Below, piece after piece: positions 45,821-62,049 of a stretch of 64,000 nt of DNA; position 1 is the first letter of the stretch; every line of letters begins with the position of its first letter. Location of the stretch: the NCBI GenBank assembly GCA_003212795.1, contig QCOV01000001.1, forward strand, positions 339,321 through 403,320. The letters are read 5' to 3'. This DNA comes from OCS116 cluster bacterium AG-435-F03 (GTDB lineage: Bacteria > Pseudomonadota > Alphaproteobacteria > MED-G09). The position numbers and the translations under genes were made by a program. The notes under the pieces were generated by a model that was not told the origin of the DNA, searched no databases, and saw nothing but the letters and a program-made list of their open reading frames with translations.

Positions 45821-46906
45821 ATGATTAGTGATACTAATATACATAAGCAAGTCATAAATTCAATTACCTTTCCAATTATAATAATTGATGAGCATAAGCT
45901 TATAAACATGGTGAATTCAGCTGCTGAAGATTTTTTTAAATTAAGCTCTAAAGTGTTGTTAGAAAAATCAATCGAAAGCATTCTTCCTTTTTCATCTCCA
46001 ATTTTATCTTTAATAGATAATTCTCTTAATACAGAAACAACTTTTAAAGAATATAGAGTTGATCTATCAACTCCAATTTCTGGTTCACATAAAGATATAG
46101 ATGTCGAGGTAACTCCAGTGATAGGGTCAGACAATTACTACCAAATTATTTTGATAGAGGGCTTTAATGAAAAAAAATTAATACTCCAGAATGAAAATCA
46201 GAAAAATAAAATAGCAATGTCAAATATGTCTCAAATTCTTGCGCATGAAGTTAAAAATCCTTTGGCTGGTATTAGAGGAGCTGCACAGATTTTAGAGAAG
46301 AATATTGAAAGTAATGAAACTGTTATGACAGATCTTATAATAAATGAAGTAGATAGAATTAAAAGACTGGTAGATAACCTTCAAGTTTTTGATGCATCAA
46401 CTCCTATTGATTTAAAGCCAATTAATATTCATTCAATTTTACGACATGTTAGAGATGTTATGATTAATTCAAGTGAAAAGAAAATCAAAATAACAGAAGT
46501 ATTTGATCCTTCGATTCCAGATGTTATTGGTAATGAAGATCAATTGATTCAAGTATTTATTAATCTTATTAAAAACTCAATAGAGGCATTCAGTGATGAA
46601 TCAGACTCTGATAATGAAATTATCTTATCAACTAATTATGAGCATGGATTCATTATTAAAGAAAAATTAAGTGAAGAAAGAGTAAAATTACCAATTAAAA
46701 TTTCTGTGATGGATAATGGTCCAGGTATTCCAGCTTCAATATCACAAGAAATCTTTCAACCATTTGTAAGTACTAAGAAAATTGGCCAAGGCGGGCTTGG
46801 GTTATCAATAGTTTCCAAAATAGTTAGTGATCATAATGGAACTATTGAGCTTGATTTAACTGATCAAGGAACAAAATTTATTATTAGATTAATGGCGGAG
46901 TCATAA
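45821..46906 (+). CDS. ntrB: Nitrogen regulation sensor histidine kinase NtrB
   Basis: NtrB phosphorylates NtrC when nitrogen is scarce and is controlled by PII. The 361-residue protein is soluble, with an N-terminal PAS domain (about 10-115), the phosphoacceptor His142 in ILAHEVKNPLAGIRGAAQIL, and an ATPase domain with NLIKNSIEA near 248, DNGPGIP near 297 and GQGGLGLSIV near 324. No membrane helix is present. It is paired with ntrC one base downstream. dusB, the usual upstream neighbour in this class, is missing. Confidence 0.93.
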   Translation: MISDTNIHKQVINSITFPIIIIDEHKLINMVNSAAEDFFKLSSKVLLEKSIESILPFSSPILSLIDNSLNTETTFKEYRVDLSTPISGSHKDIDVEVTPVIGSDNYYQIILIEGFNEKKLILQNENQKNKIAMSNMSQILAHEVKNPLAGIRGAAQILEKNIESNETVMTDLIINEVDRIKRLVDNLQVFDASTPIDLKPINIHSILRHVRDVMINSSEKKIKITEVFDPSIPDVIGNEDQLIQVFINLIKNSIEAFSDESDSDNEIILSTNYEHGFIIKEKLSEERVKLPIKISVMDNGPGIPASISQEIFQPFVSTKKIGQGGLGLSIVSKIVSDHNGTIELDLTDQGTKFIIRLMAES

Positions 46907-46907
46907 T

Positions 46908-48344
46908 ATGAGTAACAAAACTTTAATAATAGCTGAGGATGACGAGTCTATTAGATTAGTCACTTCTAGATATCTTCAAGACTTGGGTTATGAAATTTTT
47001 ATGGCAACTAACCTTAAAGAGCTATGGAAATTAATCGAAAGCAATAAGGGGGATGTATTGATTACTGATGTAATGCTTCCTGATGGAGAGCTTTTTGATA
47101 TTTTACCCCAAATAGTTGAATACAGAGAGAACCTGCCTGTAATTGTAGTTAGTGCGAAAAATAATTTACAAACAGCAATTTCTGCAACAAAACAAGGAGC
47201 TTATGAGTACTTGCCTAAGCCATTTGATTTAGATGAGCTTCAAAAGCTGATCAAGAAAGCATTAGAAAGTAAACAAAACCTTAAAAACAAAACAAAAATA
47301 AGAAATGAATCTGAAAAACAGCTTATTGTTGGTAGATCACCTGCTATGCAAGATTTATACAAATCTATAGCAAGGTTATCGCAAAATGATCTTACTGTTA
47401 TGATTTATGGCGAGAGTGGTACAGGAAAGGAATTGGTAGCTAAAGCCTTACATAAATATAGTACAAGGTCAGAAAAGCCTTTCATAGCTCTCAATATGGC
47501 TGCCATTCCTAATGATTTGATTGAAAGTGAACTTTTCGGACATGAAAAAGGATCTTTTACAGGCGCTCATCAAAAGAGTGATGGTAAATTTAAATTAGCC
47601 GAAAAGGGAACGCTATTTTTAGATGAAATTGGTGATATGCCTATAGATGCTCAAACGAGGTTGTTAAGAGTTTTACAGGAGGGTGAGTTTACACCAATTG
47701 GAGGGAAAGAAAAAATTCAAGCAGATACAAGAATTATAGCTGCAACACATAAGAATCTCTCTAACCTCATTGAGAAAGGTGAATTTAGAGAAGATTTGTT
47801 TTATAGACTCAATGTAGTCCCAATTAGCATACCCCCGCTTAGAGAAAGAAAAGAAGATATTCCAGAATTAGTTAATCATTTTTTAGACAAAGCAAAAGAT
47901 CTGCAACTTGAGCCAAAAAAATTTACTACTGAGTCTTTTCAAATTTTAGAGAAATACCAATGGCCGGGTAATGTAAGAGAGCTTGAAAATTTTATTCTGA
48001 AATTATGTGCTCTTTATACAGATGAAAATATAATGAATGATGATCTCGCCGAAGAAATATTGAATCTCCAAAAGCTTGATCAGCAAATGTTAGATACTGA
48101 CAATCAATTTTCAAAAATTTTGGAAAATTATCTTTCAAGAAATATAAATAAAATTAATAAAGAGTATCAAGGAGATGTATATAACTATTTTGTAACTGAA
48201 CTTGAAAAGGTTTTACTTTTGGAGGTCTTAAAAAATAAGAATGGCAATCAATTGAAAGCTGCTGAGTTATTAGGTTTAAATAGAAATACATTGAGAAAAA
48301 AAATTACTGAACTTAATATTAGCATAGATCAGGAAAGCAACTAA
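46908..48344 (+). CDS. ntrC: Nitrogen regulation response regulator NtrC
   Basis: NtrC activates sigma-54 promoters of nitrogen-assimilation genes. The 478-residue protein has a receiver domain with the phosphoacceptor Asp54 (LITDVMLPDG), an AAA+ domain with GESGTGKE near residue 174, the sigma-54 contact loop as GSFTGA (usual form GAFTGA) near residue 222, and a Fis-type helix-turn-helix ending in NGNQLKAAELLGLNRNTLRKK. It requires RpoN, which is not in this window. ntrY-ntrX, which often follow, are not here. Confidence 0.94.
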   Translation: MSNKTLIIAEDDESIRLVTSRYLQDLGYEIFMATNLKELWKLIESNKGDVLITDVMLPDGELFDILPQIVEYRENLPVIVVSAKNNLQTAISATKQGAYEYLPKPFDLDELQKLIKKALESKQNLKNKTKIRNESEKQLIVGRSPAMQDLYKSIARLSQNDLTVMIYGESGTGKELVAKALHKYSTRSEKPFIALNMAAIPNDLIESELFGHEKGSFTGAHQKSDGKFKLAEKGTLFLDEIGDMPIDAQTRLLRVLQEGEFTPIGGKEKIQADTRIIAATHKNLSNLIEKGEFREDLFYRLNVVPISIPPLRERKEDIPELVNHFLDKAKDLQLEPKKFTTESFQILEKYQWPGNVRELENFILKLCALYTDENIMNDDLAEEILNLQKLDQQMLDTDNQFSKILENYLSRNINKINKEYQGDVYNYFVTELEKVLLLEVLKNKNGNQLKAAELLGLNRNTLRKKITELNISIDQESN

Positions 48345-60078: not shown

Positions 60079-60142
60079 ACGAAAATAGTGACAACTATAA
60101 ATTTTTGTTGTATTGAAGCAACATATTATTGGGAGATGTATT

Positions 60143-60358
60143 TTGGATAAATTCCTTGTTATAGATTTAGAAATGGATTTACGATCTGCAAGAGCTGATT
60201 TTGAAAAAAAGTATATTACTGCTCAAATTAATAATTTTAATGGAAATATAAGTAAAACGGCTAAATTTATAGGGATGGACAGATCAGCATTGCATAGAAA
60301 GTTAAATGATCTAAATATTGGGCCTAAGAAAAAATTGCAAAGTTTAATAAGTAAATAA
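60143..60358 (+). CDS. Stand-alone NtrX-type Fis DNA-binding domain
   Basis: The 71-residue product corresponds only to the C-terminal DNA-binding end of NtrX: SARADFEKKYITAQINNF then NGNISKTAKFIGMDRSALHRKL, which is the helix-turn-helix signature of that family. The receiver and AAA+ domains are absent. TTG at 60143 is chosen because GGGAG (60131-60135) lies seven bases before it; a further upstream TTG at 60113 has no such site. The gene keeps the place of ntrX directly before trkA and hfq. It may be a functional Fis-like regulator; its target is unknown. Confidence 0.75.
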   Translation: MDKFLVIDLEMDLRSARADFEKKYITAQINNFNGNISKTAKFIGMDRSALHRKLNDLNIGPKKKLQSLISK

Positions 60359-60380: not shown

Positions 60381-61757
60381 ATGAAGATCATTATTTGTGG
60401 TGCTGGGTTAAGCGGAAGGGCTATTGCTGAAAAATTATCTCAGATTGGTAATGAAGTAACTATTATTGACTCTTCAAAAAAATTAATTGAAAAACTTGGT
60501 AATAAACTTGATATTAGAGGAATTGTTGGTCATGGGGCCCATCCTGATATTCTTGGCGAAGCTGGAGCTGAAGACGCTGAAATGTTGATTTCAGTAACTC
60601 CGTCTGATGAAATAAATATGATGGCTTGCCAGGTTGCGCATTCTCTATTTGAGGTTCCTAAAAGAATTGCAAGAGTAAGGGATAAATCTTACTTGAATCC
60701 TTCTTATCAAGATTTATTTACAAGCTCTAATTTACCAGTGAATATAATAATATCTCCGGAAAAAGAAGTTGCTAAATCAGTATTTAGAAGATTTGAGTTA
60801 CCAGGTGCTTTTGAAAATGTTCCTTTTGGAGATAATAATTTGAGATTTTTGGGTGTAAAGATAAATGACGATTGTCCAATAAAGAATACTGAGATAGGTT
60901 CATTAACTGAATTATTTCCTGATTTAAATACAGTCATCGTTGGTTTAAGAAGAGGTGATGATATAATTACTCCAAAATTTAATGATAAATTATTGGAAAA
61001 TGATCTAGCGTATCTAATTTGTCCAAGCGATTTTGCTGCTAGGACTCTATCAATTTTTGGCCATCAAAATGAACAAGCAAGAAGGATAGTTTTAGTTGGC
61101 GGCGGCTCAATTGGTAAAGAAGTTGGAAACTTAATAGAAAGCAAAATAGACAATATATCTCTTCGTATAATTGAAAAAGATCAAAACACTGCTGATAACC
61201 TATCTGATAAATTTGATAAAAGCTTTGTTATACTTGGATCTGGAATGGATAAAGATATTTTAAATGAAGCTGAAATATCAAATGCAGATATTCTAATAAG
61301 TTTAACAAACAGCGATGAAACCAATTTTATTTCTGCTGCATTTGCAAAAAGTGATGGTTGTGACAGGGTTATAGCCTTGTTAAATAATAAGGATTTTCAA
61401 GGTCTTATAAGATCAGTAGATATAGGCGATTTTTTAGATCCTAAAGCTATAACTGTATCATCTATTTTAAGGCATGTTAGAAGGGGCCATATTAGAAATA
61501 TATATACTTTATCAGATGGGTCAGCAGAGGTAATTGAAGGTGAGGTTTCATCATCATCTGAATTAGTTGGTCCTACAATAGAGGAGCTTCATTTATCAAA
61601 TGGTTTAAGAATTGGTGGTATTTTGAGAGATAAAAATATAATTATGCCAAGAGGTGATACAAAAATAAAAGAAGGTGATTATGTAACAATTTTTTCTACT
61701 CCTGAGAAAATTCATGAAGTTGAACAGTTGTTTAGAGTAAGCGCTAGTTATTATTAA
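60381..61757 (+). CDS. trkA: Trk potassium uptake regulator TrkA
   Basis: TrkA is the cytoplasmic NAD-binding gating subunit of the Trk potassium transporter. The 458-residue protein has two RCK units. The first begins with IIICGAGLSGRAIAEKL (Rossmann motif), and the second with RIVLVGGGSIGKEVGNL near residue 235; each is followed by a TrkA-C domain. The channel subunit TrkH is not in the window. The trkA-hfq order after ntrX is standard for Alphaproteobacteria. Confidence 0.94.
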   Translation: MKIIICGAGLSGRAIAEKLSQIGNEVTIIDSSKKLIEKLGNKLDIRGIVGHGAHPDILGEAGAEDAEMLISVTPSDEINMMACQVAHSLFEVPKRIARVRDKSYLNPSYQDLFTSSNLPVNIIISPEKEVAKSVFRRFELPGAFENVPFGDNNLRFLGVKINDDCPIKNTEIGSLTELFPDLNTVIVGLRRGDDIITPKFNDKLLENDLAYLICPSDFAARTLSIFGHQNEQARRIVLVGGGSIGKEVGNLIESKIDNISLRIIEKDQNTADNLSDKFDKSFVILGSGMDKDILNEAEISNADILISLTNSDETNFISAAFAKSDGCDRVIALLNNKDFQGLIRSVDIGDFLDPKAITVSSILRHVRRGHIRNIYTLSDGSAEVIEGEVSSSSELVGPTIEELHLSNGLRIGGILRDKNIIMPRGDTKIKEGDYVTIFSTPEKIHEVEQLFRVSASYY

Positions 61758-61830: not shown

Positions 61831-62049
61831 ATGTTAGATACTACTAATGATGATATAACGCAATTAGATGAAGTAAGCTTTATCAAAGATTTAATAGATC
61901 ATCATAAGTTGGTTACAATTTTCCTAATTAGCGGTATTAAACTTGAAGGCACTATCACCTCCTCCGACTCCAATACTTTAACATTAAAAGGTACGAATAA
62001 TATCCAATTAGTATATAAGCACGCAATTTCTACTATTTTACCTGTTTAA
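61831..62049 (+). CDS. hfq: RNA chaperone Hfq (divergent)
   Basis: Hfq is a hexameric Sm-like RNA chaperone for small-RNA regulation. The 72-residue product has the Sm1 motif with VTIFLISGIKLEGTITSSDS and the conserved Sm2 YKHAIST near the C terminus. By eye alignment with E. coli Hfq the rim arginines 16, 17 and 19 are Ile, Asp and His, Phe42 is Asn, Phe39 is Ser, Gln8 is Glu, and a residue is inserted before Sm2. There is no C-terminal tail. The gene lies after trkA as expected; hflX is missing, and its end overlaps mazG by 17 bases. Confidence 0.88.
   Translation: MLDTTNDDITQLDEVSFIKDLIDHHKLVTIFLISGIKLEGTITSSDSNTLTLKGTNNIQLVYKHAISTILPV

Follow-up and report, generated by a model that had tools for sequence, protein, structure and literature searches.

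A short gene carrying the DNA-binding domain of NtrX is conserved beside trkA in the marine PS1 clade

The short gene and its locus

The window, by which we mean the whole stretch of 64,000 nt that was analysed and to whose positions all coordinates refer, lies on contig C1 of a 1.44 Mb alphaproteobacterial genome that is 96% complete (about 4% may be missing) and whose family, placed via its named relatives, is the marine PS1 clade. Its genes run in the order ispDF, ntrB-ntrC and, after about 12 kb, rlpA-dacA-tmk-holB-metG-short gene-trkA-hfq-mazG, with the following features:

45821-46906, plus strand: ntrB, intact (best NCBIfam model NR(II), below its cut-off)
46908-48344, plus strand: ntrC, intact and full length (NCBIfam ntrC, 599.9 bits, above the cut-off of 558.6)
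60088-60093, plus strand: -35-like element GTGACA ([GA]TGACA-N17-TAWTNA in 15/15 family genomes)
60107-60122, no strand assigned: operator-like palindrome GTTGTATTGAAGCAAC
60111-60116, plus strand: -10-like element TATTGA, a consensus match within the palindrome
60131-60135, plus strand: ribosome binding site GGGAG, 7 bases 5' of the TTG at 60143
60143-60358, plus strand: short NtrX gene, 71 aa, TTG start (ATG in genus g2)
60143-60184, plus strand: codons 1-14 (MDKFLVIDLEMDLR), putative remnant of the NtrX receiver N-terminus (NtrX profile)
60173-60316, plus strand: Fis-type DNA-binding domain of NtrX, three helices (NCBIfam NtrX 404-451; AlphaFold2; PDB 5m7o)
60381-61757, plus strand: trkA, 22 bases 3' of the short gene, an order kept in all PS1 loci read
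61831-62049, plus strand: hfq, after trkA

The open frame of the short gene runs from the TTG at 60143 to a stop codon ending at 60358. An alternative TTG upstream, at 60113, would yield an 81-aa product; we took 60143 as the start because the codon aligned with it is a start codon in all three genera (ATG in g2, TTG in g1 and g3), and because the N-terminus MDKFLVIDL is fixed in 15/15 genomes. A purine-rich stretch occupies the position of the ribosome binding site in nearly all PS1 relatives. The short gene and trkA probably share one transcript, and placing beside trkA was also seen for full-length ntrX in SAR11 and many other outgroups. The ntrB-ntrC pair (45821-48344) is located some 12-13 kb upstream of the short gene with unrelated genes between them, and ntrBC adjoins ntrYX in many outgroups. 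Downstream, genus g3 has no hfq between trkA and mazG (G008, L039:16181-16187); in g1 and g2 the gene is present there, that of g1 being short and fast evolving.

HTH_8 was the sole Pfam domain above cut-off in the 71-aa protein (45 bits, cut-off 22), and the best NCBIfam model was NtrX, matched over positions 404-451, the last 48 of its 452 positions, with a score of 69.7 bits against a cut-off of 600. The AAA+ central domain is absent from the protein, in which Pfam recovered nothing but HTH_8 above cut-off, as is the receiver domain with its phosphorylatable Asp, of which residues 1-14 alone are left according to Pfam and the NtrX profile. AlphaFold2 modelled three confident helices (core pLDDT 90-96) and was unsure of the N-terminus and the C-terminal tail; the first helix is long and begins at residue 12, and residues 1-10 are unstructured at low confidence. 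The best match among solved structures was the DNA-binding domain of Brucella NtrX (5m7o; 0.5 A rmsd over 49 columns, 63% identity), followed by NtrC4 and then Fis, and the recognition helix is nearly NtrX's own (RSALHRK/RTALHRK). The original prediction had described a 71-residue gene that matches only the Fis-type end of NtrX, has its own ribosome binding site and TTG start and keeps NtrX's conserved place before trkA-hfq, and each of these points was borne out, the last of them in the window, in the other PS1 loci and by the full-length ntrX-trkA arrangement of the outgroups.

Conservation, selection and origin of the short gene

Fourteen other PS1 genomes, belonging to three genera, also carry the short gene (15 genomes in total; 63-98% identity); its frame is intact wherever it occurs, and at each locus inspected closely it sits between metG and trkA. 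Searches of G005, G011 and G017 (61-83% complete) did not recover it, probably because the sequence is missing from these assemblies. Pairwise dN/dS of the short gene within genera was 0.016-0.057, compared with 0.03-0.07 for trkA, 0.07-0.13 for metG and 0.09-0.29 for hfq, and was generally no higher than that of trkA, metG, tmk, holB and hfq, showing that selection on the gene is not relaxed. The conservation in 15 genomes, the fixed start and N-terminus and these low ratios together argue that the gene is not decaying DNA, in agreement with what had been proposed from the window alone.

Outside the family, almost all of the matches listed in a survey of 385 genomes of the class (the best ~170 of >327) were full-length NtrX with frames >440 aa, the listing also containing a few shorter frames in fragmented assemblies, and in 72 further named loci, mostly of SAR11, NtrX was full length or cut by contig ends. 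Short frames in SAR11 and in G044 (85 aa) were set aside as products of contig edges. One full-length NtrX (455 aa) was encoded in a PS1 assembly, on an ntrY-ntrX-trkA contig (G015:C34, L035); we consider this contig a probable contaminant, because its trkA shares only 41% identity with the trkA of the window and because the same assembly also has a normal PS1 short-gene locus.

We found no full-length NtrX in the source genome by searches for HTH_8 and receiver domains at its 96% completeness. Its three HTH_8 matches were NtrC, the short gene and a 188-aa receiver protein that we took as RegA, and all six of its receivers lie within longer response regulators. A HATPase_c search yielded six kinases, four with best models ChvG, PhoR, EnvZ and a heavy-metal sensor and a fifth that is NtrB; the sixth, beside the RegA-like protein, was taken as RegB from its place, and further matches of 839 and 648 aa were taken as GyrB- and MutL-like. 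NtrY was not recognised among the five scanned kinases of this 96% complete genome, the sixth having been assigned by place. An intact ntrYX was thus not found, in accordance with the original prediction; sigma-54 is present and the NtrBC pair is intact. The short NtrX is predicted to escape kinase control, as follows from the missing receiver and the missing NtrY.

The origin of the N-terminus was evaluated with a profile of 459 columns made from 42 NtrX proteins. The first 14 residues fit best at profile position 2, which is NtrX's own N-terminus (MDKFLVIDLDMDIR vs AHDILIVDDEADIR), scoring 15.2 bits for g2 and 14.8 bits for g1 there and at most 2.2 bits elsewhere, and only 0.2-0.3% of shuffles reached the position-2 score. 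With 12 residues the fit was weaker (P 0.03-0.35), and each of the three genera still had its best fit at position 2. After this stretch the protein reads (L/I)RxAR..FEKKY, for which the NtrX equivalent is LREAREAFEREY. Derivation of the N-terminus from the linker before the DNA-binding domain was rejected, since that region scored at most 1.1 bits against about 15 for NtrX's own N-terminus. The simplest reading would be that the short gene arose by an internal in-frame deletion of ntrX that kept the original start; any receiver could supply such an N-terminus, NtrX being the economical source. The proposed reduction of a response regulator to a Fis-like DNA-binding protein was in this way supported in substance and revised in detail: as residues 1-14 align with the beginning of the NtrX receiver, an internal deletion is a better account than a last domain that had acquired a new start.

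The promoter palindrome and its candidate targets

The pattern GTTGTAWTNAAGCAAC lies over the -10-like element in 15/15 promoters of the short gene, across three genera, with the spacing from the -35-like to the -10-like element fixed at 17 bases in 15/15 genomes, while the remaining intergenic sequence varies. The copy at 60107-60122 is the only exact match to GTTGYN6RCAAC within the window. This layout resembles a repressible sigma-70 promoter, and the fixed palindrome suggests autoregulation. The short protein is probably a homodimer, with which the palindromic candidate site is compatible, and it probably binds GTTGTA-N4-TACAAC.

A genome-wide search for GTTGYN6RCAAC in eight family genomes returned few sites, many of them intergenic and 5' of genes for TonB-dependent receptors or of gltB (recognised by Pfam Plug and GATase_2). 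Sixteen exact sites in five genomes lay away from the short gene's own promoter, and nine of these were intergenic, intergenic DNA being a few percent of the genome. The count itself was rejected as proof of a regulon: the pattern had 32 exact matches and its reversed control 19, and with one mismatch the pattern had 27 and the control 57, most of the one-mismatch hits lying inside genes. As the genome-wide count is hardly above control, the case for a regulon rests on the position and conservation of the sites.

The gltB gene occurs in 9/18 family genomes, and GTTGTA-N4-TACAAC is found upstream of it in 9/9, seven of these sites matching at 12/12 positions, one at 11/12 and one at 10/12; a 12/12 match arose in 1/3000 shuffles of one upstream region. 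The site lies 5' of the likely -35 element. One TonB receptor gene, present in six genomes, has a site upstream in 6/6, with 9-12 matches in five genomes and the sixth (G008) coming from the GTTGYN6RCAAC search. None of the outgroup gltB copies carried the gltB site (0/29), so that gltB as an ancestral NtrX target is unsupported.

The distribution of gltB itself is patchy, the gene not being found in several genomes that are 96-97% complete (G003, G007, G009). In genus g2, a Fur- or Irr-like box (such as TTGAGAATGATTATCAATT) adjoins the gltB site (L222-L226), which suggests a possible joint iron control of glutamate synthase. A further, conserved palindrome copy (L068:1474-1489; G000 C2:218473), also seen in G001 and G003, is located between a tRNA gene and the cobalamin riboswitch (RF00174) that separates it from a BtuB-like receptor gene. 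We rejected the PII gene as a likely target of this copy, because the tRNA separates the two. The PII frame there (L068:773-1279, minus strand, G000 C2) has a 57-residue N-terminal extension resembling a small ribbon-helix-helix protein; this extension may be separate from PII, as the PII part starts with an ATG of its own that is preceded, within the frame, by a purine-rich stretch.

In outgroups that retain full-length NtrX, GTTGYN6RCAAC occurred five times in 347 kb, and four of these occurrences fell in windows at the start of ntrY (4/60 windows of 320 bases each; P ~4e-5). With two of the four genomes coming from a single family, these amount to about three independent cases.

A proposed route and known systems

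We think it fairly likely that the short gene is an internal-deletion remnant of ntrX encoding a Fis-like, palindrome-binding protein that represses its own gene and regulates gltB and TonB receptor genes. The deletion would have occurred in a PS1 ancestor and joined about 14 receiver codons to the last ~57 codons of ntrX at a shared 'IR/LR' stretch ('DIR' to 'LR'), so that both the phosphorylated receiver and the AAA+ sigma-54 motor disappeared; ntrY would have been lost too. The product would be a small, Fis-like and probably dimeric DNA-binding protein independent of phosphorylation, its activity being set by protein level instead. It probably binds GTTGTA-N4-TACAAC, and at its own sigma-70 promoter would thereby cover the -10 element and repress transcription; at gltB (glutamate synthase) and the TonB-dependent receptor genes, where the site lies 5' of the likely promoter, it may activate. 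Dimerisation, palindrome binding and the sign of regulation at these genes are all points that we infer. The regulon and the autoregulation are good hypotheses, and the conservation of the gene and the purifying selection on it are well supported.

It is also conceivable, if rather unlikely, that the short gene is functional and that the palindrome belongs to another PS1 regulator which also controls the short gene, in which case the short NtrX would act at other sites or as a DNA-bending nucleoid protein. Iron regulators typically target TonB receptor genes, and the Fur- or Irr-like box beside the gltB site in g2 points the same way. Such a regulator would also be consistent with a gltB site that is specific to PS1 and not inherited from NtrX targets, and with a published NtrX site whose layout differs (PMC9223101). 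However, the most invariant copy of the palindrome is found at the short gene's own promoter, as autoregulation predicts, and the same palindrome is enriched 5' of outgroup ntrY. We give little weight to the idea that the palindromes are not operators but repeats, or hairpins of an attenuator or terminator: GTTGTA-N4-TACAAC can fold as a 6-bp hairpin and many of the sites are intergenic, but the stems are weak, A+T-rich and without a consistent T run, the own-promoter copy overlaps the -10-like element and so would not be transcribed as a leader, and the gltB copy is upstream of the likely -35 element. That the gene is a decaying ntrX remnant kept by chance or by translational linkage to trkA is scarcely credible, since its short length, the TTG start in two genera and the retained trkA synteny, which would suit such a remnant, stand against dN/dS of 0.016-0.057, an intact frame in 15 genomes and a fixed start and promoter, and decay would not outlast synonymous divergences >1.

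The reading of the short gene as an autoregulated remnant of ntrX can be set beside NtrX itself (NCBIfam NF051870; PDB 5m7n, 5m7o, 5m7p), with which the protein shares the DNA-binding domain, the 14-residue N-terminus and the place before trkA-hfq, and from which it differs in lacking the receiver, the AAA+ domain and NtrY and in having 71 residues as opposed to ~450-510. The NtrX proteins of Brucella, R. sphaeroides and Caulobacter bind 5' of the operon that encodes them, and NtrX autoregulation has been reported in these other genera (PMC7240162, PMC9223101, PMC11005374). Footprinting and gel shift established CAA-N2-5-TTG as the NtrX site of Brucella and S. meliloti (PMC9223101), and GCA-N9-TGC was proposed by comparison for R. 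sphaeroides (PMC7240162); the PS1 site that we propose, GTTG-N8-CAAC, has the same half-sites as CAA-N2-5-TTG in the opposite order. In Caulobacter, NtrX represses RusT, an iron-starvation sRNA; a pulse of RusT expression reduces glnA and several TonB receptors (PMC11005374). The recurrence of receptor genes in PS1 would fit this role of NtrX elsewhere, though by a direct route.

A stand-alone NtrX DNA-binding domain was also seen in G048, a 63% complete genome of another alphaproteobacterial family, as a 95-aa frame with an ATG start (L036:4347-4634) whose product is 53% identical to the PS1 protein. This frame is not beside trkA, was seen in one incomplete genome, and has an N-terminus with no significant match anywhere along the NtrX profile; it is probably an independent reduction of NtrX. 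We tentatively propose, as a possibility short of likelihood, that one deletion converted a response regulator into a kinase-free, autoregulated Fis-like factor throughout a clade and redirected its regulon towards glutamate synthase and TonB receptors, and that the step proposed to have led from NtrC to Fis was so repeated independently in Alphaproteobacteria, at least twice (PS1 and G048). Genome reduction usually deletes a regulator or leaves it whole. Here the middle was excised, and the DNA-binding end was retained under strong selection together with a conserved operator-like site. If true, this would reveal a route from a phosphorylation-dependent to a concentration-dependent regulator and a second case of the kind of origin proposed for Fis, and gltB and the TonB receptors would make a concrete candidate regulon in a little-studied marine group.

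Morett and Bork (1998; cited in PMC7166090) proposed that Fis derives from NtrC. The short NtrX resembles Fis, a nucleoid-associated protein of 98 aa, in being a stand-alone Fis-type helix-turn-helix of similar size from an NtrC-family regulator, and in its palindromic site of ~15-16 bp. It scored below the curated Fis cut-offs (PRK00430, 15.5 vs 99; PRK01905, 16.5 vs 122), and its model is missing the N-terminal beta-hairpin and helix A that serve Fis in dimerisation and Hin stimulation. Unlike Fis, it is an NtrX-derived protein of Alphaproteobacteria, would have arisen by internal deletion, and has few specific candidate sites in place of Fis's many degenerate ones. Phage lambda NinH is likewise a very small, stand-alone, Fis-like homodimer, with the palindrome G-N13-C (PMC7166090), but it is a phage protein that is not derived from NtrX and carries its helix-turn-helix on the N-terminal side.
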